From NCBI RefSeq assembly GCF_017792025.1, contig NZ_CP046956.1:3472001-3536000 (forward strand): 64,000 nucleotides of DNA, given 5' to 3'. Positions within the stretch are counted from its first letter, which is position 1, and every line of letters starts with the position of its first letter. Below the pieces are notes generated by a model. It searched no databases. It saw nothing but the letters and a program-made list of their open reading frames with translations, and was not told the origin of the DNA. Shown here piece after piece: positions 11,540 to 48,342 of the stretch. The position numbers and the translations under genes are program-made. The stretch is from Sediminibacillus dalangtanensis. GTDB lineage: Bacteria > Bacillota > Bacilli > Bacillales > Amphibacillaceae.

Positions 11540-11824
11540 TTAACTTACTGGTTCCGCAGGAGTATCTGCTTCTGTCGTGTTAATACTGTATTTTAACTTT
11601 GTAGCTTCGCCGCCGCGGAGATGGCGGATTGCTTTATGGTGGTCCAAAACCGTTTTTACTTCATTCGCCAGCTCCGGATTGATTTCCGGCAGCCTTTCCG
11701 TTAAATCTTTATGGACCGTGCTTTTTGATACCCCGAACTCTTTCGCTATCACTCTAACTGTCTTCCTGGTCTCTACAATGTACTTCCCAATCCTGATAGT
11801 TCTCTCTTTGATGTAGTCATGCAC
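11540..11824 (-). CDS. spoIIID: Sporulation transcriptional regulator SpoIIID
   Basis: 94-residue DNA-binding regulator of mother-cell gene expression during sporulation (it acts with SigE, then SigK). The helix-turn-helix is RVIAKEFGVSKSTVHKDLTE, and a conserved basic stretch HLRGGEATKLKY follows. The start is GTG at 11824 (VHDYIKERTIRIGKYI), with GGGAGG eight bases upstream. The frame extends 16 codons further upstream without support from the family. It is expected to be transcribed in the mother cell by SigE. Confidence 0.97.
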   Translation of the reverse strand: MHDYIKERTIRIGKYIVETRKTVRVIAKEFGVSKSTVHKDLTERLPEINPELANEVKTVLDHHKAIRHLRGGEATKLKYSINTTEADTPAEPVS

Positions 11825-12051
11825 ACCACTCGCCTCCCTGAGTTGTAAGTCCAAGGTGTGAAATTGAGACATAGGTGCTGAGAAAATAATGACTGGAATA
11901 TTCTATGTAAAAAGATACAAAGCGGCGCGGTTGTTATCTTCGATGTTTAGTGGAAAAGCCCCACAGTACGCTCACCTCAGACCATGCTTGAATGCTAGGT
12001 TTTTACCATTTTATTAAAATCGGCTCGCAATTATGATTAAATTTGTAAATT

Positions 12052-12134: not shown

Positions 12135-12167
12135 AGAAAAAAAGCACCCATTCAGGATGGGCGCTTT
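12135..12167 (-). terminator. Terminator, probably of the AimP-like transcript
   Basis: Minus-strand stem AAAGCGCCCAT / ATGGGTGCTTT (12141-12167), followed by TTTTTTTC. It lies 130 bases past the AimP-like stop, with nothing coding between. Confidence 0.7.
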
Positions 12168-12298: not shown

Positions 12299-12454
12299 TT
12301 AGCCGATTTCACCGTACTCTGGATCGTAATGAATAACAATCGGCTCGTCATCAACCGGCTCCTTGTCCTTGCCGTCTGCCAGGAATGCAGCTCCCGGTTG
12401 TACCAAAGCAAACCCTACCACCAACACAAGCAATGCAACTAATCTTTTTACCAT
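12299..12454 (-). CDS. AimP-like secreted signalling pro-peptide (candidate)
   Basis: 51 codons: MVKRLVALLVLVVGFALVQ begins a clear Sec signal (two basic residues, 15-residue hydrophobic core, PGAA then FLADG as possible cleavage sites). The remaining mature part is acidic (DGKDKEPVDDEP) and ends in HYDPEYGEIG. A perfect AGGAGG sits nine bases before the ATG. It follows a receptor of the AimR family on the same strand. AimP pheromone precursors are likewise 40-50 residue exported peptides encoded directly downstream of aimR, with the active hexapeptide at the C-terminus. The active peptide here could be the last 5-8 residues, ending EYGEIG; this is inference. The ending differs from the xxxRGA type of the SPbeta group. 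Confidence 0.72.
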   Translation of the reverse strand: MVKRLVALLVLVVGFALVQPGAAFLADGKDKEPVDDEPIVIHYDPEYGEIG

Positions 12455-12694
12455 AAATAAAACCCTCCTAAAAAATTTTATTTATAAAAAGATTGTTCGA
12501 TCCAGAAAAGATTGTTATGTAGTTTTCCAAGGAAGCTATTCTGGAAAAAGCAATCCTCTTACCAAAATAATCGTTTGAACAAATCCTGAATACCTTTATT
12601 GTCGGAGAAAAACTCGGATGAGATCATTTGAGGTGGAACTGTATCCAATAAGCCTCCTAATGTCTTGCTTGTTTATCCTCATTAACACATGATT
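12455..12694. other. Spacer between AimR-like receptor and AimP-like peptide genes
   Basis: 240 bp with a 29-codon candidate ORF near the receptor end, and an A+T-rich stretch just before the peptide ribosome site. No terminator hairpin was found, so read-through from the receptor gene to the peptide gene is possible. Confidence 0.45.
12559..12648 (-). CDS. Possible 29-codon ORF between receptor and peptide genes
   Basis: TTG-initiated frame giving LDTVPPQMISSEFF..., ending IQDLFKRLFW. AGGAGG lies four bases before the TTG, a little close. There is no signal peptide; the C-terminus is amphipathic and basic. The in-frame upstream stop is nine codons before the TTG. It could be a real microprotein of the locus, a regulatory leader, or chance. 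I recognise no homologue. Confidence 0.3.
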   Translation of the reverse strand: MDTVPPQMISSEFFSDNKGIQDLFKRLFW

Positions 12695-13750
12695 TCAAGC
12701 ATCGTTTTTAAATCGACTGTTATTTATCGCCAATAACGGAAGGCGTGAGAAAAAGTAATCACTTCTTTTAACAATAAAGTCGTTATAAGCACGAAGTAGT
12801 ATTCCTTTGTCCTGTTCTGCTAAACCAAGGTAGTATTTTCGAAAGGGAGATTCCAAGGAAATGCTTTTAAGGATTCTTTTTGCTTCTTCCATGTCTCCTC
12901 TGGCTATTGCCAAATGAGCTTGTTCACTTGGATCAGTGGTGGTAACTCCATCAACAACTCCAAAATGAGCCGAAATGAAGGGGTAGTTTTGTTGTTCTAT
13001 TGCCTTGATAAGAGTGGTTTTATTGTAGAGAGTGGCGATACGTTTTGCTTCCTCCAAGTGATAGATACATTGGAGATAGTTTTCATATAAATAACTCAAA
13101 CCTAGGTGCATGTGAATATTAGCTTTTCTCTCCTGGCAATAAGGATAAGTTAAAACCTGAAATGCATACTTTCTTGCCAAAATTAACTCGTTTCTTTTCC
13201 AGTAGTATGTAAATAAGGTCTCATTGAGGCGGACGAAAAAGAGTGAGGTTAAAAAGGAATCCTCTATCTCGCTGATGAGTTCAGACTGATGATCCAGGTA
13301 ATCACCCAGTTTTTCAAATTCATTTAAGTCATAGTAGAGATAGATTTTCATAAAGCCGACTAAACAATTCAGTTCTGCGATATTCGTTTTCATTTGATGC
13401 ACTTTTTCCAGCAACTCGTGTTTCGGCTTGGCGCCTTGCTTACGAAGGACGAAGAGTTCATAGAGGTAGGCCCATTTCCGATTAATAGGATTAACGCTTT
13501 GTTTATTTTGTAGAAGTAACATATCCAATTCCTGAAAGAAACCATTCATATAAAGAAATTCCATGCCTGTCCTTTTCACATAGTCGGATGTCGAGTCCAT
13601 GCAAAAAAGCCTTGTCATATGAACAACCTCGTCTTCCGTGTGATCCATGCGAATAGTATTTACATAGTCTTCTATAGTCATGTGTTTATTTAACATGGGT
13701 TTCTCAACGACCCTTTCAATAAATTTACGTCGGGAAGGGCTTCTCGTCAT
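12695..13750 (-). CDS. aimR: AimR-family peptide-pheromone receptor (TPR protein) lacking an evident HTH
   Basis: 351 residues, all-helical, with TPR-like repeats throughout. The resemblance to AimR, the arbitrium receptor of SPbeta-group phages, is clearest in the C-terminal third: DPSEQAHLAI (273-282), a GDMEEAKRIL helix, KYYLGLAEQDK (305-315) and SDYFFSRLPLL (330-340). An RTGMEFLYMNGFFQELDMLL stretch (60-79) matches the first TPR helices. AimR proteins are about 380-400 residues and start with a DNA-binding HTH. Here only about 20 mostly basic residues (MTRSPSRRKFIERVVEK) precede the TPR part. The start is secure: AAGGAGG lies six bases upstream, and there is no open HTH frame before it. 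A sigma-A promoter and an SOS-type box precede it. Family membership rests on remembered motifs. Confidence 0.8.
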   Translation of the reverse strand: MTRSPSRRKFIERVVEKPMLNKHMTIEDYVNTIRMDHTEDEVVHMTRLFCMDSTSDYVKRTGMEFLYMNGFFQELDMLLLQNKQSVNPINRKWAYLYELFVLRKQGAKPKHELLEKVHQMKTNIAELNCLVGFMKIYLYYDLNEFEKLGDYLDHQSELISEIEDSFLTSLFFVRLNETLFTYYWKRNELILARKYAFQVLTYPYCQERKANIHMHLGLSYLYENYLQCIYHLEEAKRIATLYNKTTLIKAIEQQNYPFISAHFGVVDGVTTTDPSEQAHLAIARGDMEEAKRILKSISLESPFRKYYLGLAEQDKGILLRAYNDFIVKRSDYFFSRLPLLAINNSRFKNDA

Positions 13751-13804
13751 ATCATACCTCCTTCTTTCCTTACAAGATGCGAGTTAACTTGTCATCTTTA
13801 TTTA

Positions 13805-13832
13805 ATTATCGCATAAATATTACGTATTTCAA
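13805..13832 (-). promoter_or_regulatory. Sigma-A promoter of the AimR-like gene
   Basis: Minus strand TTGAAA (13827-13832), 16-bp spacer, GATAAT (13805-13810). It lies 54 bp upstream of the ATG. Confidence 0.65.
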
Positions 13833-13842
13833 CAGGAAAATA

Positions 13843-13856
13843 CGAACATTAGTTCG
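13843..13856. promoter_or_regulatory. LexA/DinR-type SOS box
   Basis: CGAACATTAGTTCG matches the Bacillus LexA arms CGAAC-N4-GTTCG exactly. It ends ten bases upstream of the -35 of the AimR-like gene. One half site (AAATACGAACATT) also resembles a PurR box with one mismatch, but no second PurBox at the usual spacing is seen. LexA is therefore the better reading. Confidence 0.6.
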
Positions 13857-13923
13857 ACAATATATTGCAAAATGTTACAAATTTCTGACTTTTTCTACAA
13901 GCATAACTAGGTCTTTTTTCGCA

Positions 13924-14163
13924 GGACAAAAGCGCAAGCGCCTGTTTAAAGGAGTACAGGCTAAAGCTGCCATGTCCTGTAGCAACGCCTGCATGATCCA
14001 CATCGTTTAGGCCTCCGACATGCTTAAGACAAGCCTCGGCGTGGTGCTTCTTGCCATACAGAGGCTTGTCTTAAGATCTCGAGGGGGGAGGAGCTGGAGC
14101 TGGACGTGGCTGGTTCAGCCAATAATGATCCACAGACAGTTAATTTTATCATTTCCAATACAA
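13924..14163. repeat. 240-bp structured dispersed element, copy 1
   Basis: Closely similar over its whole length to 48103-48342. It begins GGACAAAAGCGCAAGCGCC (a GCGC-AA-GCGC mini-hairpin) and ends near TTATCATTTCC. Inside is a perfect 15-bp stem CTTAAGACAAGCCTC / GAGGCTTGTCTTAAG plus smaller stems. It directly abuts the spoIIQ terminator. Small frames across it are not genes. Confidence 0.85.
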
Positions 14164-14164
14164 T

Positions 14165-14192
14165 AAAAAACCCCGGTAACTATACCGGGGTG
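14165..14192 (-). terminator. Terminator after spoIIQ
   Basis: Stem ACCCCGGTA / TACCGGGGT (14170-14191). It is followed on the minus strand by TTTTTT, about ten bases past the stop. Confidence 0.85.
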
Positions 14193-14202
14193 GGTGTTCC
14201 CT

Positions 14203-15120
14203 TTATGCGTTAGCCATTGCTGCGGAAGATTCACGATCTCCAGCCGAAGACTCTTCTGTTGAGCTGCTGTCATCGACATTTCCCTGGTCTTGTTCCGAAT
14301 CAGTTTTTTCCTCGTCGGATTCAGTACCTTCCTCTGTCGAAGCATCCTGCTCGCTGTTTGTTTCTTCATCTGCAGAAGCGTCTTTGTCCTGTGTGTCCTC
14401 TTCCTGATTTTGCTCTTCTTCAGAAGACTCCGCTTCCAGCTCATTTAGTTGCCGGTTGAAATACGATTCTGGATTGACTGGTGTATCACCCTGGCGCAGT
14501 TCAAAGTGTACATGGGTACCGCTTGCCTGGCCGAATAGATTTTTACCAGCCGTTCCGATAACGTCGCCTTGTTGAACCTTGGCACCTGCTTCTACCGCTA
14601 CCTCTGCCAGACTAGCATAGTAAGTAGTGACTTCATTCTCGTGGGAAAGCTTGACTACGTTACCCAAAAGCGGATCTTCTTTGACTTCAACAACTTCACC
14701 GCTCAGGGAAGCAGTAACATCAAAACTTTCTCCTTCCGCTGCAGCAATGTCGACACCGGTGCTTTGATAGTACTTATTGTTGTATAGTACAAGTGCTTTT
14801 TCTTGATCTTCACTATCTGCACTATAGTCATAAAACTTTGTTACAATCTCGGCTTGTGCTTCTTCCTGCACCGGCATTTTGATTACTTCCTGCTGCTCCA
14901 ACACTGGTTCGGCATCTTCACCCATGTCAAATGGATTTTCGGTAATGCTATCCAACTCGGAATCATTTTCCGCCTGCTCAGGGGTATCCAGGCTTTGATA
15001 CCATAGAACTCCTGTTAAAAGCAAAGCAGCCATCGTCAAGTAAAGTGCCGGGAAAAACCATTTCTTACGAAAGATACGTTTCCATCCATTTTTTGAAACG
15101 TTCTTGTTTTCCTCTCTCAT
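14203..15120 (-). CDS. spoIIQ: Stage II sporulation protein SpoIIQ (LytM/M23-fold)
   Basis: 305 residues. Forespore membrane protein that binds SpoIIIAH across the intermembrane space to hold the engulfing membranes and build the feeding channel. Basic N-terminus, one TM span (about 25-45), linker, then an M23/LytM domain (about 130-220) with STGVDIAAAEGE and THVHFELRQG. The first metal ligand His of active M23 enzymes is Ser/Thr here, so it should be catalytically inactive, as SpoIIQ of B. subtilis is thought to be. The last 75 residues are an acidic Glu/Ser/Asp tail, longer than in B. subtilis. ATG 15120 is chosen because GAGGTG precedes it at six bases. Confidence 0.93.
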   Translation of the reverse strand: MREENKNVSKNGWKRIFRKKWFFPALYLTMAALLLTGVLWYQSLDTPEQAENDSELDSITENPFDMGEDAEPVLEQQEVIKMPVQEEAQAEIVTKFYDYSADSEDQEKALVLYNNKYYQSTGVDIAAAEGESFDVTASLSGEVVEVKEDPLLGNVVKLSHENEVTTYYASLAEVAVEAGAKVQQGDVIGTAGKNLFGQASGTHVHFELRQGDTPVNPESYFNRQLNELEAESSEEEQNQEEDTQDKDASADEETNSEQDASTEEGTESDEEKTDSEQDQGNVDDSSSTEESSAGDRESSAAMANA

Positions 15121-15236
15121 GATCATCACCTCAGCTACCATTCTGAGCAGAAAATGAGAGATATATACATTTTAAAAAATTTTTTTAGTAATTAATGTTC
15201 GACAAACTCCTGTTTTTATACATCAAACAAGAAAAA

Positions 15237-17138: not shown

Positions 17139-18146
17139 TTATTGTAGCACCGTTTCTTTTATCGGTGTTTTGTCTTTGATTTCTTCGTTATATAAATGGC
17201 AGGCAACATAATGATCTTCTTCGATTTCCTGCCAAACCGGACTGATTTTGGCGCATGCTTCCATGGCAAACGGGCAGCGTGTCCGGAATACACACCCGCT
17301 TGGTGGATTTATCGGACTTGGGAGTTCTCCTTCCAGAATCATTCGTTCGCGTCCTTCTTCTACGTCGGGATCGGGAATCGGGATTGCTGAAAGCAGCGCT
17401 TGTGTATAGGGGTGAAGCGGACGTTTATATAAGTCGCCTGCTTTCGTCAATTCGACCATGTTGCCTAAATACATGACGCCGATCCGATCGGAAATATGCT
17501 TGACCATTGACAGGTCGTGCGCGATAAACAAATACGTCAGTCCTTTTTCCTTTTGCAATTTACGGAGAAGGTTGACGACCTGAGCCTGTACAGAAACATC
17601 GAGAGCGGAAATCGGTTCATCTGCAATGATGAATTCCGGATCAAGGGCGAGGGCTCTGGCAATGCCGATCCGCTGTCTCTGTCCGCCGCTGAACTCATGG
17701 GGATAACGGTTGGCATGGTCACGACTGAGTCCGACTTCCTCCAGAAGCTGATACACCCGGTCCAGCCGCTCTCTCTTGTCAGGGTACAGTCCGTGGATTT
17801 CCATTGGCTCGGAAATGATTTCTTTTACTGTTGACCGAGGATTCAACGAAGCGTATGGATCCTGGAAAATCATCTGCATGCTGCGGTGAAAGTCGAAGGT
17901 TTCCGATTCCTTCAGCTCATGAACGTTTTTTTCATTGAAAACGACTTCCCCCTCCGTACGGTCATACAGTCCCATGATGGTACGGCCGATGGTCGATTTG
18001 CCGCAGCCGGACTCGCCGACAAGGCCGAATGTTTCCCCTTCGTACACATCAAAACTCACATCATCGACCGCCTTCAAGATTTCATCCTTTCCGACTTGAA
18101 AATATTTTTTCAGCTGATTCACTTGCAGCTTTTTGGTTTGTTTCAT
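17139..18146 (-). CDS. ykfD: Oligopeptide ABC transporter ATPase YkfD (DppF/OppF-like)
   Basis: 335-residue nucleotide-binding subunit. Walker [10 protein letters not shown] (about 47-55), Q-loop [13 protein letters not shown], signature [14 protein letters not shown], Walker [13 protein letters not shown], switch His in FIAHDLS. It ends with the oligopeptide-transporter C-terminal extension whose Cys pair ([11 protein letters not shown] and VACHL) is typical of OppF/DppF. The ATG at 18146 overlaps the ykfC stop codon (ATGA), and GGAGGG lies seven bases upstream. It is the last gene of the dppABCDE-ykfABCD operon and the expected partner of DppD. Confidence 0.92.
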
Positions 18147-19078
18147 TGTGCTCCCTCCGTCTCTTGCCAATACCGTCTAGCTCCACATAACTCTTTTTCA
18201 TAGACGGTGCCGGCCAATGTGGTGATTTCGATGGACTTTCCTGTTGTCGGGGAGTGGATCATCTTGCCGTCGCCATAATACATGCCGACATGATGCAAGG
18301 TGCCTTTACCTTCTTCGTATGCGAAGAATAACAAATCTCCCGGCAACAATTGATCGAATGCGATTTCCTCTCCACCTAGCGCAGCCTGGTCGGAAGCGTC
18401 TCGCGGTATTTGGTGTCCGTTGGCCTTGTACATATTGTAGCTAAACCCCGAGCAATCATAGCCATAGGCACTCATTCCACCCCAAAAGTATTCTAAGCCG
18501 AGAAATGCTTCGCCCGTCCTGACAATGTCCGTGCCGCTTCCTTTCACCACTTCTTCCCCCGCCCGAACGATTTCCACATCCGACTTGTACAGGTATCCTG
18601 GGGTTGCATCCGGCAGCAAAACTTTTGCATGAGAATCTGTCACTCCGAGAAGTGGCAGTGCCGTCAAATAGCTCAACTCCAATAAAAATGCTTGTTTCTC
18701 ATCATATAAAGATGCCAGTTTGCTGGAAACAACCGCCTTCCCTTTCACCTGCTTTGCATCGGGTTTCGGCTGTGCCTGACAAGCTGGTATCCAGCCGGGA
18801 TAACCGCGGGAATCTTTTTTGGATGGCTGGGTCGGCACGATCACCTGAAGCCAATCCTGCTTCTCCTCCAGCACGATTACTTCCTCTCCATATAACAATT
18901 GGGATTGAACTAAATTTTGTTCACACAAGTCAAGCCGCGTTTGGTAGCTCAAACGATTCAGCCAGGTTGGCAAATCTACCGGATTGGTGATCCCAGGTTG
19001 ATCCACCTCACGCGGTGCTTCCGGACTGGTCCATAAAGTAGCTACCGGTACATTAACAATCCATCTGTCTTGGTCCAT
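18143..19078 (-). CDS. ykfC: Gamma-D-glutamyl-L-diamino acid endopeptidase YkfC (NlpC/P60)
   Basis: 311 residues. Hydrolyses the D-Glu-gamma-diamino acid bond in murein peptides that have a free N-terminal L-Ala, a cytoplasmic recycling step. Two SH3b-like domains (about 5-165) precede the NlpC/P60 domain: catalytic Cys209 in YGYDCSGFS, catalytic His about 263 in [11 protein letters not shown], third polar residue His275. There is no signal peptide, consistent with action on imported peptides. The gene lies two bases after ykfB and overlaps ykfD. It produces the L-Ala-D-Glu that YkfB epimerises. Confidence 0.93.
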
Positions 19079-19080
19079 GA

Positions 19081-20184
19081 CTATCGAGCCTCCTCACTCT
19101 CTGCTGCAATGTTTACCTGTTGAATGCCCAAACCAGACTCAACTGGCATTCGGATGACCTTCCCTTCGTAGGCGATTCCTCCAGCTATGGCATTTTGTGC
19201 CAACATCAAAGGGGCGTCAAAATCAAACCTGGTTATATTCGGCTGACTTGCCGCCAGATGGGCCGCTGCCGTAATGCCCAATTTGGTTTCGATCATACTG
19301 CCGATCATACATTCTGTCCCATAGGATGCCGCCAGCTTGGCAATTTTCAACCCGTTATGGATGCCGCCTGCCTTCATCAGCTTGATGTTGATCAGGTCGG
19401 CGCTGCGTGTCTCTAAGATTTTCCTGGCATCTTCTGGAGAAAAAACACTTTCATCTGCCATAATGGGTGTCTCGACATGGTCGGTAACGAATTTCAACCC
19501 AGCAATATCTCCTGCTTTTACAGGTTGTTCTACCAGTTCAATATCGAGCCCGCCGTCTTCCATTTTCCTGATTGCTTTGACAGCTTCCTTTGCACCCCAT
19601 CCCTGATTGGCATCAAGCCTGATGAGGATGTTGTCTCCGACATGATTACGGATGGATTGGATTCGCCAGATGTCTGTTTCGATGTCATCTTTACCGACTT
19701 TTACCTTCAGGCAGGTGAAGCCCTGCTCTATATACTGAACGGCGTCTTCTGCCATTTCTTCCGGTGTATTGACACTGACCGTATAATCCGTTTCCAATCG
19801 ACTGCGGTAACCTCCGAGCAATTGATAAAGCGGCAGTCCGCAGTGTTGAGCAAAACAATCATAGACTGCCATATCGATGGCAGCTTTCGCGCTTGTATTG
19901 CCTACCATACACTGATCAAGCGTTTGAAAAACATCTTCCATGGCCAACAGCGACTTGCCGATGAGAGCGGGAGTGATGACTTTTTCGACTGCATACTTGA
20001 TGCCTGCCAGGCTGTCTCCGGTGATTACGTGGGTAGGCGGCGCTTCCCCCCACCCCGTCGTGCCGTCCGAACACGTCACTTTGACATAGATGGATTCAGC
20101 CACTGTAACCGTCCTTAACGCTGTCTTAAACGGTTTTTTCAAGGGAACGGCAACGTTCACTGTCTCGATCGATTGGATGTTCAT
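19081..20184 (-). CDS. ykfB: L-Ala-D/L-Glu epimerase YkfB
   Basis: 367 residues. Enolase-superfamily enzyme that converts L-Ala-D-Glu to L-Ala-L-Glu so that the dipeptide can be degraded. The N-terminal capping domain runs to about residue 125. The barrel follows, with the first catalytic Lys motif CLKVKVG, metal ligands in IRLDANQGW (Asp), IELVEQPV (Glu) and PIMADESVFS (Asp), and the second Lys in NIKLMKAGG. The start is ATG 20184 with GAAGGAGGG ten bases before it. Forty-one more upstream codons are open but overlap ykfA. Confidence 0.94.
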   Translation of the reverse strand: MNIQSIETVNVAVPLKKPFKTALRTVTVAESIYVKVTCSDGTTGWGEAPPTHVITGDSLAGIKYAVEKVITPALIGKSLLAMEDVFQTLDQCMVGNTSAKAAIDMAVYDCFAQHCGLPLYQLLGGYRSRLETDYTVSVNTPEEMAEDAVQYIEQGFTCLKVKVGKDDIETDIWRIQSIRNHVGDNILIRLDANQGWGAKEAVKAIRKMEDGGLDIELVEQPVKAGDIAGLKFVTDHVETPIMADESVFSPEDARKILETRSADLINIKLMKAGGIHNGLKIAKLAASYGTECMIGSMIETKLGITAAAHLAASQPNITRFDFDAPLMLAQNAIAGGIAYEGKVIRMPVESGLGIQQVNIAAESEEAR

Positions 20185-20209
20185 TTGGTTGATCCCTCCT
20201 TCACCATAT

Positions 20210-21130
20210 TCAGCGCACTCCCGGCTCGATGACCAGCGTCTTTTTGCTGGCAGACAAACGTGCCTGGACTCCCAACGGGACTGCCACATGAGGCTGGCAA
20301 TGTCCAATTTGGAATCCTTTCACGACAGGAGCACCCAGCTCGGCCAAATAGTCATTCAGCACTTGTTCAAGCGTCAAGGAGCTTTTCCGTTTCTTTGGTA
20401 CAGCATTTTTGAAATCGCCGACCACGATGCCGGCCGCCTGCTCCAATTTGCCGGCCATTCGCAGCTGGTTGAGCATGCCATCAATTCGGTATGGTTCTTC
20501 ATCGACATCCTCTAACAGCAGCAGCTTCCCTTCCGTGTCGATTTCATACGGAGTACCCAATGTACTGCATAGCAGACTTAAATTGCCTCCTGTAAGCTCG
20601 CCCTGGGCATCTCCTTCCGCGATGACTTCGAGCGGGGCAATTTTCTCCGAATAGACTATTTGTGTCGGCTCGAATAGCTGGTTGAACATTTGCTTGGACA
20701 GGGGAGCGAAATCTGCTTCCCCGATATCCGAGCTGACCATCGGACCGTGAAAGGTTACCAAGCCGGATCTTTGCTGGAATGCAGTATGTAAAAAAGTAAT
20801 ATCGCTATAGCCCCAAAAAACCTTAGGATTGTCGCCAATCATCTGATAATCGATTTTGTCGGCGATTCTACCTGTGCCATAGCCTCCGCAAATACAAATG
20901 ATCCCGGCAATTTGCGGGTCTCTGAACATATCATGTAAATCTTTCAAGCGGTCTGCATCTGTTCCTGCCAGATAGCCGTATATATCGTTGCTATGTTTTC
21001 CTCTTCTCACATGCAAGCCAAGTGATTCAATGAATGCAATACCTTTTTTGACGTTGGCAGGATTCGGTGGACTGGCCGGAGCAATCAGACCCACGGTATC
21101 CCCGGTCTTCAAACGGCTGGGTATTTTCAT
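20210..21130 (-). CDS. ykfA: Murein tetrapeptide L,D-carboxypeptidase YkfA (S66, MccF/LdcA-like)
   Basis: 306 residues. Peptidase family S66; family members remove the terminal D-Ala from murein tetrapeptides or act on related substrates in the cytoplasm. Motifs are TVGLIAPASPP near the N-terminus, IICICGGYGTGRI, the nucleophile region KVFWGYSDITFLH (Ser), GELTGGNLSLL, and the C-terminal FQIGHCQPHVAVPLG (His). It starts at ATG 21130 with AGAGGAGG upstream. It begins 193 bp after dppE, across a hairpin terminator, which suggests lower or separately tuned expression of the ykf half of the operon. Confidence 0.9.
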   Translation of the reverse strand: MKIPSRLKTGDTVGLIAPASPPNPANVKKGIAFIESLGLHVRRGKHSNDIYGYLAGTDADRLKDLHDMFRDPQIAGIICICGGYGTGRIADKIDYQMIGDNPKVFWGYSDITFLHTAFQQRSGLVTFHGPMVSSDIGEADFAPLSKQMFNQLFEPTQIVYSEKIAPLEVIAEGDAQGELTGGNLSLLCSTLGTPYEIDTEGKLLLLEDVDEEPYRIDGMLNQLRMAGKLEQAAGIVVGDFKNAVPKKRKSSLTLEQVLNDYLAELGAPVVKGFQIGHCQPHVAVPLGVQARLSASKKTLVIEPGVR

Positions 21131-21242
21131 GGCTTCCTCCTCTTCCTTCCGGTGGACACTGCAGCCACTTTCGACTACAGCAGGGCACCGTGTGGTTGTG
21201 ATTACTATTAGGGGTCCATCCATTAATCGATGGATGGTAAGA

Positions 21243-21290
21243 AAAAGCCCAGCCTGGCGGATGGTTGAATCCCATTATTCCAGGCCGGGC
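21243..21290 (-). terminator. Internal terminator/attenuator between dppE and ykfA
   Basis: Stem GCCCGGCCTGG / CCAGGCTGGGC (21247-21257, 21280-21290). It is followed on the minus strand by TTTTTC. Because all genes continue in the same direction, it may act as a partial terminator that keeps the binding protein in excess of downstream products. Confidence 0.75.
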
Positions 21291-21322
21291 AGTATTGAGC
21301 AGATTCTCCATTTACTTCAAAA

Positions 21323-22984
21323 TTAGTTTTTGTCAGCCCACTTTAGTTCCATATAACCTACAGGGTGACGGACGATGCCTGATACATTATCTTTATGCAA
21401 GAATACTTGATTGTAGAAATTGACCGGGACGATCGGCATTTCTTCAAACAGTACTTTTTCCGCTTCGTACATCAAATTCCAGCGTTTTTCTTCATCTGCT
21501 TCCTGTTTAGCCTGGGCAATCAAATCGTCATATTCTTCATTTGACCAGCCGGTCCGGTTCATCGAAGAGTCTGTGACGAAGCTTTCCAGGAAGTTGATCG
21601 GGTCGCCATAGTCAGCCAGGAAGGAGCTGCGGGAAAGCTGGTGCTTCAAATCCTTCTGGTCTTGCAGGAACACGTTCCATTCTGCGTTTTCCAGAGTGAT
21701 TTCAATTCCAAGGTCCTGCTGGAAGCGTTGTTGGACCGTTTCTGCTATTTTTTTGTTGTCATCGCTTGTGTTATAGGTCAGTGTAATCGGCGGCAGTTCG
21801 TCGTAGCCCTCTTCTTCCATTCCTTTTTCCAAAAGCTTTTTCGCTTGTTCCGGATCATATTCTACCAAGTCACCGTTCGTTTCGCGGAAATCATTGCCGG
21901 AAGGATCTTCAAATCCGTAGGAAACGAAACCGCGGGCTGGTTTTTCTCCTTTTTTCGTTACATAGTCAACGATTTCATCCTGATTGACGGCCATGGCCAG
22001 TGCTTTGCGGATTTTCACATTTTGGAACGGTTCCTCGTTGACATTGAATCGATAGAATTGTGTGCCTGCCTGCGGGTCGATGACTACCTGATCGCTGTCG
22101 AGCAAGTCTTCAGCTAAATCAGCCGGTATTTCCGAGGTATCCAAATCGCCGCTTTCGAACATTTGATATTCGGTGTTTGTTTCATTTACCATCGCCCAAT
22201 GGACTTCATCCAGTTTAACAGTGTCTTTATCCCAGTACTGGTCGTTTTTCACCATGGTAAAGTCGCTGTCATGGTTCCACTCACTCAACTTGAATGGTCC
22301 GTTGGCGACAAATGTATCTGCTTCTGCATACCATTCCGGATTTTCTTCCGCTACAGCCTTGTTGACTGGGAAGAATGCCGGGTTGGAAATGACATTAAGG
22401 AAAAATCCTGTCGGTGCTTCCAACGTCACCTTAAATGTCTTCTCGTCCATCGCTTCCAAACCTAGGTCATCAGCGCTGCCTTCTCCGCTGTTGAAGGCTT
22501 CTCCACCTTTAATGAAGTAGCCGAGAAATGCGGAAGAGAATCCTTCCTCCGGATCAAGCAGCCGTGTCCATGCAAATACAAAATCCTCCGCCGTCACGTC
22601 ATCGCCATTCGACCACTTGGCATCTTCCCGGATATGGAAGGTGTATTCCAATCCATCGTCAGAGATATCCCATGATTCCGCTGTTGCGGCTTCCGGCTGA
22701 TGATCCTGTCCCAACCGGGTGAGGCCTTCCATCAAGTTGTTCAAAGATTGCCAGGATGCTGCGTCGAATCCTTCCGGCGGATCGAAGGAGGTCGGTTCTA
22801 CCCCATTGTTTAAACGAAGAACCTTGTCTCCGCTACTTTCCGCTTCATCACTGGTTCCTTCATCTGTTGTCTCTGTCTGATCTCCAGAATCCTGCTCCTC
22901 TTCACCGGCACTTTCATTGGCAGTACATGCTGCCAGAACGAACACGGCCAGCAATACAAATAAAAACGCCAAGCCCTTCTTCAT
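21323..22984 (-). CDS. dppE: Dipeptide/oligopeptide-binding lipoprotein DppE
   Basis: 553-residue extracellular solute-binding protein of family 5. Lipoprotein signal MKKGLAFLFVLLAVFVLAAC and then a 40-residue acidic linker. The mature domain has LRLNNGVEPTSFDP, the ANGPFKLSEW motif and RKALAMAVN. It captures peptides (in B. subtilis including murein tripeptide) for the DppBC channel. AAAGGGGG precedes the ATG. Confidence 0.93.
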   Translation of the reverse strand: MKKGLAFLFVLLAVFVLAACTANESAGEEEQDSGDQTETTDEGTSDEAESSGDKVLRLNNGVEPTSFDPPEGFDAASWQSLNNLMEGLTRLGQDHQPEAATAESWDISDDGLEYTFHIREDAKWSNGDDVTAEDFVFAWTRLLDPEEGFSSAFLGYFIKGGEAFNSGEGSADDLGLEAMDEKTFKVTLEAPTGFFLNVISNPAFFPVNKAVAEENPEWYAEADTFVANGPFKLSEWNHDSDFTMVKNDQYWDKDTVKLDEVHWAMVNETNTEYQMFESGDLDTSEIPADLAEDLLDSDQVVIDPQAGTQFYRFNVNEEPFQNVKIRKALAMAVNQDEIVDYVTKKGEKPARGFVSYGFEDPSGNDFRETNGDLVEYDPEQAKKLLEKGMEEEGYDELPPITLTYNTSDDNKKIAETVQQRFQQDLGIEITLENAEWNVFLQDQKDLKHQLSRSSFLADYGDPINFLESFVTDSSMNRTGWSNEEYDDLIAQAKQEADEEKRWNLMYEAEKVLFEEMPIVPVNFYNQVFLHKDNVSGIVRHPVGYMELKWADKN

Positions 22985-23005
22985 GTAAATCCCCCTTTTT
23001 GTTGG

Positions 23006-24013
23006 TTACTTTCTTGTCCCTTCCATAGGAGAGACGAGTTGTGCTCTGCGATCCTGCAGCCAGCAATCCACTTCATGGGTGGTGCTGCGTGATGCTGAAT
23101 CGGGATACACTTTATCACACACCTCCATCGCGAACGGACACCTTGCTGTAAAGGGGCATCCTTGTGGAGGTGAGAATAAATCAGGTGGTGTTCCGTCAAT
23201 CGGAATGAGATCATCTTCTTCTATATCCAATCGTGGAACGGAATTCAGCAATCCTTTTGTATAAGGATGCTGCGGTTCATAAAATATCTCCCGCTTGGTT
23301 CCGACTTCAATGATTTTACCTGCGTACATGACAGCAATTCGGTCGGCGATTTTGGCAACGACACCAAGGTCATGGGTGATCAAAATAATTGAAACACCTG
23401 TCCGTTCCTGGATTTTTCCGAACAACTCCAAGATTTGTGCCTGTATCGTGACATCAAGCGCGGTAGTCGGTTCATCAGCTATCAGTAAATCCGGATCGCA
23501 AATCAGCGCCATGGCAATCACCATCCGCTGGCGCATACCTCCGCTGAATTGATGCGGATATTGTTTCAGCCGCTCTTCTGGACTAGGGATTCCGACCAGG
23601 TTCATCATTTCCAAGGCTTGCTCTTTCGCTTCCCGTCCGGATACGTCCTTATGCTGCTTCAGTCCTTCGGTCAGCTGGTCGCCAATGGTCAAGGTCGGAT
23701 TAAGCGCCGTCATGGGATCCTGGAAAATCATCGAAATATCGACACCGCGTATTTTCCGCATCTCTTTTTCAGGTACAGTAGTCAAATCGCGGCCCTTGTA
23801 AACAATCGAGCCATTCGCGATTCTTCCAGGGGGTGTAGGGATCAATCGCATGATGCTGTTGGAGGTTACACTTTTTCCACAGCCGGATTCGCCGACAATG
23901 GCCAAGGTCTCCCCCTTTTCCAGATCGAAATTGACCCCGCGGACCGCCTGGACTTCCCCGCCGTATGTTTTGAAGGTTACGTGCAAGTCTTTTACTTCTA
24001 GTATTTTTTCCAT
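23006..24013 (-). CDS. dppD: Dipeptide ABC transporter ATPase DppD
   Basis: 335 residues, same length as B. subtilis DppD. Walker [12 protein letters not shown]-loop MIFQDPMTALNP, signature FSGGMRQRMVIAMAL, Walker B LLIADEPTTALD, H-loop ILITHDLG, and a C-terminal oligopeptide-transporter domain with the Cys-containing GCPFTARCPFAMEVCD. ATG 24013 is preferred over the in-frame GTG at 24022 because GGGAG lies eight bases before it. The GTG overlaps the dppC stop. Confidence 0.94.
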   Translation of the reverse strand: MEKILEVKDLHVTFKTYGGEVQAVRGVNFDLEKGETLAIVGESGCGKSVTSNSIMRLIPTPPGRIANGSIVYKGRDLTTVPEKEMRKIRGVDISMIFQDPMTALNPTLTIGDQLTEGLKQHKDVSGREAKEQALEMMNLVGIPSPEERLKQYPHQFSGGMRQRMVIAMALICDPDLLIADEPTTALDVTIQAQILELFGKIQERTGVSIILITHDLGVVAKIADRIAVMYAGKIIEVGTKREIFYEPQHPYTKGLLNSVPRLDIEEDDLIPIDGTPPDLFSPPQGCPFTARCPFAMEVCDKVYPDSASRSTTHEVDCWLQDRRAQLVSPMEGTRK

Positions 24014-24018
24014 TGTTG

Positions 24019-24972
24019 TCACTCCCTGAGTTTCGGATCCAGGGCATCCTGAAGTCCGTCTCCTAACACATTAAAAGCAAACATCGTCAAGGAAATAAAT
24101 AACGCCGGGAAGAACAGGCGCCACCAGTCTCCTGACAGAATGGTAGGCAGGGCATCATTGGCCATCACGCCCCAGCTGGCGTACGGTGCCTGGATTCCGA
24201 GTCCTAAAAAGCTTAAAAACGCTTCTGCAAATATGGCAGTGGGCACCGTCAACGTCATCTGGACAATGATTGGCCCCATCGTATTAGGCAAGAGGTTTTT
24301 GCGGATGATCCGCCATGATTTAGCACCGAACGACTCGGAGGCGAGTATGAACTCGAGGTTTTTCAGTTGCAGTACCTGCCCCCTGACGATCCGTGCCATG
24401 CCGACCCATCCGGTAACACTAAGTGCGACGATGATCGTTGCCAGGCTCGGTCCCATGACAACCAGCAACAAAATGACAACCAGCAAATACGGCAGACCGT
24501 AAAGAACCTCAATGATCCGCATCATAATATTATCGGTGCGGCCGCCTTTGTAACCCGAGATACCGCCATAAACGACCCCGACGAAGAAATCAATCAATGC
24601 TGCCATCAGTCCGACAAACAAGGAAATCCTCGCACCATACCATGTTCTCGTGAAGACATCCCGGCCCAACTCATCCGTTCCAAACCAGTGATCCGCGGAC
24701 GGAGGCATGTTCTGATTTGGAAGATTGATTTCCCTTACAGAGTGAGGAGAAAAAATCGGTCCGAAAATCGCCAGTAATGCCAGGAGAACCAAAAAGATCA
24801 ATCCTCCCATGGCAAGCTTGTTTTTGATGAGACGCTGCCAGGCATCGCTCCAGTAAGAAAGCGACGGTCGCGAGACCTTCTCTGCATCTTGCTTGCTTTT
24901 ATCAAGCGGGCGGAACCATTCGTCCGGAATACCCGGTGACTGCGGTTCCTTTTGCTTTTCTGCCAGACTCAT
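24019..24972 (-). CDS. dppC: Dipeptide ABC transporter permease DppC
   Basis: 317 residues. An N-terminal cytoplasmic tail of about 60 residues, one TM helix (IFLVLLALLAIFGPIF), a loop with FGTDELGRDVFTRTWYGARIS, then the five-helix permease core. The EAA motif is EFILASESFGAKSWRIIRKNLLPN. ATG 24972 has AAAAAGGAGG upstream and lies one base after the dppB stop. It forms the membrane channel with DppB. Confidence 0.94.
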   Translation of the reverse strand: MSLAEKQKEPQSPGIPDEWFRPLDKSKQDAEKVSRPSLSYWSDAWQRLIKNKLAMGGLIFLVLLALLAIFGPIFSPHSVREINLPNQNMPPSADHWFGTDELGRDVFTRTWYGARISLFVGLMAALIDFFVGVVYGGISGYKGGRTDNIMMRIIEVLYGLPYLLVVILLLVVMGPSLATIIVALSVTGWVGMARIVRGQVLQLKNLEFILASESFGAKSWRIIRKNLLPNTMGPIIVQMTLTVPTAIFAEAFLSFLGLGIQAPYASWGVMANDALPTILSGDWWRLFFPALFISLTMFAFNVLGDGLQDALDPKLRE

Positions 24973-24973
24973 G

Positions 24974-25906
24974 TCATTCCGCCTCCTTTTTATGCAGTTT
25001 GATTCTCGGATCCAAAATACCGTAAGCAATGTCCACAAGGAATAGCATAATGATCAGAAAGGCACTGTAAAATACGGTTGTCCCCATAATTACCGGGTAG
25101 TCCCGATTATTGATACTTTCGACAAAATACTTGCCCATTCCCGGGATTGCGAAGATTTTCTCCAAGACAAAGGTGCCGGTTAAAATTCCTGCCAACAAGG
25201 TGCCCAAAATCGTCACGACAGGCATCAAAGCATTTTTCAAGGCATGCTTAAAGACGATTTTCCACGGTGACAACCCTTTGGCTCTGGCCATTTTGATATA
25301 ATCCTGTGTCAGGACTTCGAGCATGCTCGACCTTGTCAACCTGGCAATGATGGCCATCGGCCCCGTCGCCAATGCGATTACCGGAAGAATCATGTGCTTC
25401 GGACTGCTCCAGGTGGCCGCCGGAAGGATTTGCCATGTAACGGCAAACGATTGAATCAGCTGAGTGGCCAAAATGAAATTCGGAATCGAGATTCCGAGCA
25501 CGGCAATCGCCATGGCGGCATAGTCGATGACCCCGTTGTGGCGGAGTGCCGCGATGATTCCGAGCAATATTCCGGAAATAATCGCCACAATCACGGATAC
25601 CAGTCCAAGTTCCAGGGAAATCGGAAATCCGCGCCCGAGCAAATCATTCACCGTTGAGGTCGGTTGTTTGATCGACGGGCCAAAATCAAACGTGACAATC
25701 GATTTCAAGTAAAGCAGGTATTGCATATACATTGGTTCATCCAGATGGTAGTGCGCCTCCAGGTTGGCCTGTACCGCTTCACTCGTCCCCCTCTCCTGAT
25801 TGAACGGGGAACCGGGAATCGCATGCATCAAAATAAACGTTAAGGTGACGATGATTAAAATGGTGACCAGCATGATCAAAAAACGTTTTGCTATGTATCG
25901 CAGCAT
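24974..25906 (-). CDS. dppB: Dipeptide ABC transporter permease DppB
   Basis: 310 residues with six predicted TM helices. The N-terminus MLRYIAKRFLIMLVTILIIVTLTF is typical of DppB/OppB. The EAA loop is DYIKMARAKGLSPWKIVFKHALKNALMP. It lies ten bases after dppA, with TTAGGAGGG before the ATG. Confidence 0.95.
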   Translation of the reverse strand: MLRYIAKRFLIMLVTILIIVTLTFILMHAIPGSPFNQERGTSEAVQANLEAHYHLDEPMYMQYLLYLKSIVTFDFGPSIKQPTSTVNDLLGRGFPISLELGLVSVIVAIISGILLGIIAALRHNGVIDYAAMAIAVLGISIPNFILATQLIQSFAVTWQILPAATWSSPKHMILPVIALATGPMAIIARLTRSSMLEVLTQDYIKMARAKGLSPWKIVFKHALKNALMPVVTILGTLLAGILTGTFVLEKIFAIPGMGKYFVESINNRDYPVIMGTTVFYSAFLIIMLFLVDIAYGILDPRIKLHKKEAE

Positions 25907-25916
25907 GGCTTCCCTC

Positions 25917-26741
25917 CTAACTGAACGTCGTGCGCATAGCCAGTTCTGTCATAACCAGCATTGCCTGATACGCTTCAAGGATGTTTTTGGCCGGGAACCT
26001 GACCGTAGTACTCCCAGTTTCGATTTCTGTCCCGGGCATCAAATTGGCCCATTCCGCCTGACCGTAATTGGTGAATTCAATCCGCAGCACTGGATTGTCC
26101 GGCGGCGTGAGCGGTTTGACATTCTGTCGGTTTTCCAGGGCGGCGCCCGCCTGCCTTTGCAGAAGCTCTCCCGCCCTTTTCGGAGAAAGGGTTTTGACCG
26201 CTGACCGGGAAATGGTGGTTTTAACCGGAGCGGTGACAATGTTTGGAATAAGCTGTTCTGCTTCCTGACAGGCACAGTCATCTCCCGCAACCATTAACAC
26301 TGGTACACCGAAGTATCCCGCGACATAGGCATTGAACCCGAGTTCGCCGACAACCTGGTCGTTGATGAAGAAATTGCGGACCCCGAACGTCATCGAATGG
26401 GACATCACACCTCTTTGACCGGCACGGGCGTGGTAGCCGAGAAACATTGCTCCTATGTAACTGTCATCTAGATTTTGTACCATAGAAAAGGGTTTTACAT
26501 CGCCTGTGATGAGTGAAGCTTCTGGATGGATTGCGTCGATTAAGAGGTTGTTCATTTTGGAGTGGCTGTCATTCACTACTATTTCATCACAGCCAAATTC
26601 ACTTGCAGCTTCGATTACATGGTTGGCTTCTTCTGTCATGATCTTGCGGGCACGTTCGTAATTGTGCTTGTCTGAGTCAACGAAGGTTTGATCCGGCAGT
26701 CCGGTTATCCCTTCCATATCCACTGATAAGAAAAGTTTCAT
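25917..26741 (-). CDS. dppA: D-aminopeptidase DppA (M55)
   Basis: 274 residues, identical in length to B. subtilis DppA. This zinc-dependent decameric D-aminopeptidase prefers D-Ala peptides. Metal-binding residues are visible in LSVDMEGITGL (Asp/Glu), IVVNDSHSKMNNL (Asp/His), MFLGYHARAG and GVMSHSMT (His). It is the first gene of the nine-gene operon and releases D-Ala from murein-derived peptides. GAAGGAG lies 11 bases before the ATG. Confidence 0.95.
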   Translation of the reverse strand: MKLFLSVDMEGITGLPDQTFVDSDKHNYERARKIMTEEANHVIEAASEFGCDEIVVNDSHSKMNNLLIDAIHPEASLITGDVKPFSMVQNLDDSYIGAMFLGYHARAGQRGVMSHSMTFGVRNFFINDQVVGELGFNAYVAGYFGVPVLMVAGDDCACQEAEQLIPNIVTAPVKTTISRSAVKTLSPKRAGELLQRQAGAALENRQNVKPLTPPDNPVLRIEFTNYGQAEWANLMPGTEIETGSTTVRFPAKNILEAYQAMLVMTELAMRTTFS

Positions 26742-48102: not shown

Positions 48103-48342
48103 GGACAAAAGCGCAAGCGCCAGTTTAAAGGAGTACAGGCTAGAGCCGCCACGTCCTGTGGCAACGCCTGCATGACCCACATCGTTTGGGCCTCCGACAA
48201 GCTTAAGAACAGCCTCGGCGTGGCGCTTATTGCCACACAGAGGGTGGGCTTAAGACCTCGAGGGGGTAGGCGCTGGAGCTGGACGTGGCTGTTTCAGCCA
48301 ATAATGATCCACAGTCAATTAAATTTATCATTTCCTATACAA
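48103..48342. repeat. 240-bp structured dispersed element, copy 2
   Basis: Second copy of the element at 13924-14163, same orientation and length. Shared blocks include GGACAAAAGCGCAAGCGCC, TTTAAAGGAGTACAGGCTA, GCAACGCCTGCATGA, CCTCCGACA, CTGGAGCTGGACGTGGCT and AGCCAATAATGATCCACAG. The long stem is less perfect here (CTTAAG...CCTC / GAGG...CTTAAG), but the inner GTGGC / GCCAC loop stem is kept. It directly abuts the mntP terminator. Confidence 0.85.

Follow-up and report, generated by a model that had tools for sequence, protein, structure and literature searches.

It has been reported that several peptide-pheromone systems are built on TPR receptors. In the AimR-AimP-AimX system of SPbeta-group Bacillus phages, the receptor gene adjoins the propeptide gene aimP and the peptides are GMPRGA or SAIRGA. 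The Rap-Phr systems of Bacillus combine a TPR receptor without HTH, a secreted propeptide and a link to sporulation (general knowledge and excerpts of PMC10075063); AloR-AloP of Paenibacillus and NprR-NprX, in the excerpts available, are likewise TPR pheromone receptors of the same superfamily. AimR-branch homologues also occur in chromosomes outside prophages: according to the excerpted text of PMC9765709, almost 90% of the AimR proteins in chromosomal DNA not classed as prophage are without propeptides and may eavesdrop, while excerpts of PMC12700828 mention a chromosomal Alkalihalobacilli 'subfamily 21', which a sequence tree places inside AimR, and call a DPG motif widespread in AimR-subfamily peptides. 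Neither a spoIIQ-spoIIID locus nor a Spo0A box nor loss of the HTH is named in the excerpts of these two papers, a comparison made by description only; among the literature matches listed, titles and abstract openings mention no AimR at spoIIQ-spoIIID or under Spo0A, and an earlier mention is possible.

The locus analysed here lies in a stretch of 64,000 nucleotides of the Sediminibacillus dalangtanensis genome (the window). It resembles the phage system in its adjacent aimP-like propeptide gene; it differs in being chromosomal and vertically inherited with no phage gene among the scanned neighbours, in a receptor without HTH and with a shorter C-terminus, in an acidic DP-motif peptide, and in a predicted Spo0A box upstream of the receptor. 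Unlike Rap, the receptor is without the RapH_N three-helix bundle, and unlike the eavesdroppers without propeptide in the excerpted PMC9765709, a peptide is encoded at 29 of 50 loci. The locus is probably an old, vertically inherited, Spo0A-linked chromosomal receptor/propeptide pair for a peptide pheromone, belonging to the AimR branch of the RRNPPA superfamily and probably acting by protein contact. Homologues of AimR in chromosomes are already known. The first-pass annotation is right in the main, and the analysis adds to it synteny throughout the family, contact residues whose conservation goes with the peptide, the predicted Spo0A box, the HTH-less clade and the orphan paralogue.

The receptor and its chromosomal setting

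The receptor, named AimA here, contains all three motifs quoted in the first-pass annotation (DPSEQAHLAI, KYYLGLAEQDK and SDYFFSRLPLL); the end coordinate given there, 13856, takes in the upstream control region of the gene (Table 1). Its assignment to the AimR family, first made from these motifs, is upheld by profile searches: PF22871 matches with 253.8 bits (cut-off 26.7; E 2.8e-75) and NF038310 with 196.6 bits (cut-off 70; E 6.1e-58), both above the curated cut-off, and PHROG 1728 with E 6.6e-55. All 10 PDB sequences that match at E <= 0.001 are AimR, and so are all 16 Foldseek matches of the predicted model at the same threshold, which is consistent with an AimR TPR fold. The kinship with AimR is far above chance. 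The receptor of Sediminibacillus halophilus, the closest named genome, is 99% identical; dN/dS is 0.042–0.056 in three close pairs, a fourth pair being saturated, and the receptor is under purifying selection.

Table 1. Features of the receptor–propeptide locus (window coordinates)
Feature	Position	Strand	Basis
spoIIQ, upstream flank	14203..15141	-	NF053738, 322.1 bits
Terminator-like hairpin separating spoIIQ from the receptor unit	14170..14191	-	hairpin search
Predicted Spo0A box TGTCGAA upstream of the receptor	13853..13859	-	recurrence in A loci (see text)
Palindrome CGAACTAATGTTCG (CGAAC-N4-GTTCG), LexA-box-like, overlapping the Spo0A box	13843..13856	-	perfect form in A loci of one genus (see text)
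Sigma-A-like promoter TTGAAA-16-GATAAT, beginning 27 nt downstream of the first base of the Spo0A box	13805..13832	-	pattern match
AimR-family pheromone receptor AimA, without HTH, 351 aa	12695..13750	-	ORF and profile matches
Ribosome-binding site AGGAGG of the propeptide gene	12464..12469	-	sequence; GGAGG script match
Propeptide gene, 51 codons: signal peptide, acidic middle, C-terminus HYDPEYGEIG	12299..12454	-	ORF; recurrence of DP-motif propeptides (see text)
Codons for DPEYGEIG (residues 44–51), the probable mature pheromone	12302..12325	-	conservation in the genus and DP-containing repeats; exact processing putative
Terminator-like hairpin 3' of the propeptide gene, 11 pairs	12141..12167	-	hairpin search
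spoIIID, downstream flank	11540..11872	-	TIGR02844, 148.9 bits

Besides spoIIQ and spoIIID, the neighbourhood includes an MreB/Mbl protein and spoIID. The 24 neighbouring proteins scanned are products of sporulation, cell-wall, flagellar, transport or other chromosomal genes or are unmatched (two match no Pfam family), and, as had been stated from the sequence, no integrase, capsid, terminase or other phage gene is among them. A tblastn search with the receptor returned no phage and only three plasmids, at 23–24% identity, but it also missed the phi3T AimR present in the phage collection, so that the search is insensitive and rules out near phage relatives only. Many such proteins carry the NCBI name 'AimR family lysis-lysogeny pheromone receptor', which is misleading because the family of the window conserves them as chromosomal genes next to sporulation genes; none of the results supports a lysis-lysogeny function ("arbitrium" as a functional term).

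A PF22871 match at E <= 0.001 was obtained in 62 of 101 genomes, and the 104 matching ORFs were classed by their neighbours in the fetched stretches as A (spoIIQ and/or spoIIID in the stretch; 51 rows corresponding to 50 loci), B (speB and/or speE; 16) or O (others; 37). The 50 A loci occur in 49 of 61 genomes sampled from the family of the window, where they cover 37 of 46 sampled genera, and in a single genome from a different family. Both spoIIQ and spoIIID are seen in 47 of them, and in all 47 the receptor lies between the two on the same strand; of the other three, L061 and L074 are near contig ends, and in L058 spoIIID lies about 10 kb away on the same contig. The first-pass annotation had described a stand-alone, non-phage pair inserted between spoIIQ and spoIIID. 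Its chromosomal position in a sporulation gene block stands, with the refinement that the locus is no stray insertion, because the arrangement recurs in 37 of the 46 sampled genera and a second conserved paralogue exists elsewhere.

This second AimR-family receptor without HTH is situated outside the window (L032:9569-10639, minus strand; about 3555568-3556638 in the same genome), between speE-speB and ywiB-argS and with no adjacent DP-motif peptide; in this genome, 71 kb separate the single A receptor from the single B receptor. The B loci number 16 in 16 genomes, one of them of another family, and ywiB and argS are also seen in 15 of the 16, L066 ending at a contig edge. In a quick tree of 102 rows including phi3T, built without the L132 fragment and without either half of the broken receptor in L084, 49 A, 16 B and 11 O rows (76 receptors) form one clade with an SH-aLRT of 100 and a branch length of 0.98, and phi3T AimR and 25 other rows fall outside it; the tree is unrooted and was searched without bootstrap. 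A and B look like old paralogues, and the B paralogue may sense the peptide of the A locus or one related to it.

Other features were seen in these stretches. One genome of another family has seven tandem AimR-family genes of 384–387 codons (L119:7979-16483). Directly upstream of spoIID in the window, an operon at 17139-26741 resembles a murein-peptide uptake set, comprising D-aminopeptidase DppA, an OppB/C/D/A/F-like transporter, a carboxypeptidase and Ala-Glu epimerase-like and NlpC/P60-like members; single members have a match of >40% identity in up to 27 of the 50 A-locus stretches, a lower bound because the stretches are short. This Opp/Dpp-type operon was rejected as a part of the receptor system, as it is not found in all A loci; its proximity may be coincidence. 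Bacillaceae-1 RNA elements (RF01690) occur in the window at 13945-14011 and 48124-48190 (plus strand), one of them between spoIIQ and the receptor.

Receptor termini and likely mode of output

The earlier remark that the receptor has no HTH is borne out: its frame stays open for 362 codons between stops, which adds only 11 to the ORF, and the receptor is without a match to any HTH family. The profile alignment starts at SPbeta residue 47, so that the recognition-helix residues N30, N32 and Y35 of AimR are without counterpart. No HTH family appears among the 25 of 34 Pfam families listed for 71 receptors; a Pfam HTH scan was positive in none of four clade members (three with long N-termini) vs five of six rows outside the clade, but it misses the known HTH of phi3T AimR, so the absence rests mainly on the start of the alignment and on N-terminal length, and N-terminal lengths overlap between the groups (26–70 in A, 46–104 outside the clade). 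At the other end, a median of 9 residues follows P338 in A (range 6–15) vs 19.5 outside the clade (range 4–35); the region is shortened where AimR has a dimerising capping helix. As far as sequence comparison goes, an HTH is not recognisable in the receptors, and their C-terminal region is shortened. The Pfam scan of the receptor gave no match to the RapH_N three-helix bundle.

The TPR domain of AimR contacts DNA too, according to excerpts of PMC6536502, and short low-confidence N-terminal helices are left in the predicted model, so a receptor that still regulates DNA directly, like AimR, through a basic TPR surface or a remodelled N-terminus has to be considered. We think this improbable, given the unmatched recognition-helix residues, the 11 further codons of open frame and the shorter C-terminal region. 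As the first-pass annotation suggested, the receptor probably acts by protein contact.

Upstream control region and the link to sporulation

TGTCGAA is described as the core of the 0A box in excerpts of PMC3485338. In sense orientation it occurs within 250 nt upstream of 43 of the 50 A receptors, vs 2 of 50 in reverse, with a mean of 1.02 and a maximum of 5 in 200 shuffles; it is extended to TGTCGAACGA in 30 of 50 A loci. Before neighbouring genes it is found in 0/49 cases for spoIID, 0/48 for spoIIID, 9/46 for mbl and 14/50 for spoIIQ (one of these 50 stretches is a weak match outside the A loci); before B receptors the counts are 3/16 forward and 5/16 reverse, and before O receptors 6/37. 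The positive control, spo0A, has the forward motif in 25 of 30 genomes examined (9 of 11 within the window's family), and spoIIGA, which was tried first for this purpose, has the exact box in none of 30; both controls comprise the 30 loci that the search returned from 61 genomes. A reference title in PMC12090719 speaks of weak 0A boxes in spoIIG.

In the window's own genome, TTTGTCGAAC is not enriched (16 matches vs 40 for the reversed pattern), and 13 of the 16 lie inside an open frame of at least 120 codons on either strand. One of the three outside such frames, a Spo0A-box-like site at 15197-15206 of the window, begins 65 nt before the spoIIQ ORF.

Promoter-like sites are no commoner in the region than in shuffles (3 vs 5.0), so the TTGAAA-16-GATAAT match alone is no evidence, and the spacing between box and promoter is uniform in a subset only, the -35 element lying at +24 to +30 in 14 of 42 loci (L085 left out). 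Terminator-like sites are in excess (13 vs 1.9 in shuffles), and hairpins flank the receptor–peptide unit. The receptor shares with the Spo0A regulon a predicted 0A box upstream, and activation by Spo0A is suggested because the box is located upstream of the promoter.

The palindrome that overlaps the box is a perfect CGAAC-N4-GTTCG and resembles the LexA consensus, which would make the pair a DNA-damage-linked signalling unit under LexA/SOS control. Among the A loci, the perfect form is found in the window, L034, L035, L038 and L039 only, all of the window's genus, and what is conserved elsewhere is the overlapping TGTCGAACGA; with the perfect palindrome in only 5 A loci, LexA/SOS control is set aside as a general mechanism and is held to be highly improbable.

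As to distribution, spoIIID is absent from three genomes of the family (G011, G012 and G054, two of one genus), all three without receptor, and seven family genomes with spoIIID are also without any PF22871 match. RapH_N is present in only 4 of the 61 family genomes (G019, G033, G054 and G059); a full A receptor is present in only G019 and G059 among these, both of one genus, and there the contact residues and the peptide are lost. A link between the distribution of spoIIID and RapH_N and that of the receptor is suggestive only. Nearness to sporulation genes is no proof of a role, because the B paralogue adjoins polyamine and argS genes.

Propeptide, pheromone contacts and proposed role

The small signal-peptide gene reported on the same strand is present: the propeptide ORF begins 240 nt downstream of the receptor, with a GGAGG site, and searches of Pfam, NCBIfam and PHROG with its product gave nothing below E 0.1. 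Receptor and peptide are conserved together, which is the check that the first-pass annotation had proposed: a DP-motif signal-peptide ORF lies within 600 nt downstream, in sense, in 29 of the 50 A loci (the window included) and never upstream or in antisense, and in 30 shuffles of the downstream DNA the mean number of such ORFs is 0.10 and the maximum 1. Such propeptides follow 0 of 16 B and 6 of 37 O receptors. Of the 21 A loci where none was seen, L061 ends at a contig edge; in another, L084 (7344-8370), the receptor is split into two overlapping frames and apparently broken, with the variant peptide DPAYEDVG downstream. One L084 piece was left out of the Spo0A-box and peptide counts. Two identical propeptide ORFs lie 3' of the receptor at L038:8790-12346, possibly an assembly artefact, as this genome has two spoIIID copies and several spoIIGA copies.

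The C-terminus HYDP(E/D)YGEIG is constant in all five genomes of the genus, and the precursors, of 51 or 71 aa, differ in the sequence and the length of their middle part; in the same three close pairs as above, peptide dN is 0.017–0.093 and dS 0.153–0.577. Tandem motifs with DP inside the repeated unit are found in the precursors of L062 (DPGLGDMD, twice), L064 (SDPEHGEIF, four times), L081 and L101. In place of EYGEIG, the ending of the test peptides in the first-pass annotation, an active form like DPEYGEIG is more probable, because the tandem units of the relatives L062 and L064 contain DP.

It has been reported, in the excerpts of PMC6458997, that the pheromone-contact residues of SPbeta AimR include E300, F276, D360, F362 and L366. 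Aligned and mapped by hand, these correspond to E276, F258, D331, F333 and L337 of the receptor; against these five that are kept, four contact positions (N202, N206, T236 and N239) are replaced, which would fit a different peptide. By alignment, several pheromone-contact positions are conserved in the receptors. In a table of 48 A loci (L061 and L084 left out), F258, E276 and D331 are all intact at each of the 29 peptide-bearing loci, and 5 of the 19 loci lacking a peptide have changes there (Fisher P 0.007, indicative only because the rows are related).

These results bear on two other explanations. In the first, the locus would be what domestication has left of a prophage arbitrium system, and it would chiefly sense peptides of phages, eavesdropping on lysis-lysogeny signals; the family takes its name from phage AimR, the excerpted PMC9765709 proposes such eavesdropping by chromosomal AimR without propeptides, and the peptide is found at none of the 16 B loci and only 29 of the 50 A loci. 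Those same 29 A loci, however, encode a peptide of their own, the synteny covers 37 of 46 sampled genera, the 24 scanned neighbours include no phage gene, a predicted Spo0A box precedes the receptor, and tblastn gave no close phage relative (near relatives only, phi3T AimR being missed too), so that this origin and role appear unlikely. The second is a non-communicating housekeeping TPR protein next to an unrelated secreted peptide, which would account for the 21 A and 16 B loci without a peptide. It is very improbable: peptide motif and position recur far above chance, the contact residues track peptide presence, and some precursors carry a tandem motif, as do some RRNPPA propeptides in the excerpts of PMC9765709.

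If the locus is a Spo0A-linked chromosomal pheromone pair, starvation would raise Spo0A~P and induce the receptor, and read-through would induce the propeptide as well. Once exported, the propeptide would be processed to an acidic octapeptide, for example DPEYGEIG, which an oligopeptide permease would carry back into the cell and which would bind in the TPR groove of the receptor. The receptor, probably a bare TPR protein with neither the HTH of AimR nor the three-helix bundle of Rap, would have a protein from the sporulation or transition-state network as its binding partner, and the pheromone would switch the receptor, so that commitment to sporulation would depend on cell density. A bolder version, which we offer tentatively and rate somewhat below an even chance, is a third type of RRNPPA output: an AimR-branch receptor stripped of HTH and three-helix bundle would serve as a bare peptide-gated TPR switch in a Spo0A feedback circuit, replacing Rap-Phr as the sporulation quorum sensor throughout the family, with the peptide-less paralogue reading the same pheromone.

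The 29 peptide-bearing A loci are natural receptor–peptide pairs for specificity studies. If the reading as a sporulation-linked pheromone pair is true, the locus would be a testable bacterial counterpart of arbitrium, would bear on the chromosomal AimR 'eavesdroppers' described in the excerpts of PMC9765709, and would offer a density-dependent route to sporulation for sporeformers in which the Rap N-domain is found in only 4 of 61 genomes; if the third type of output is also true, phage arbitrium would be a relative of a bacterial sporulation-timing pheromone.
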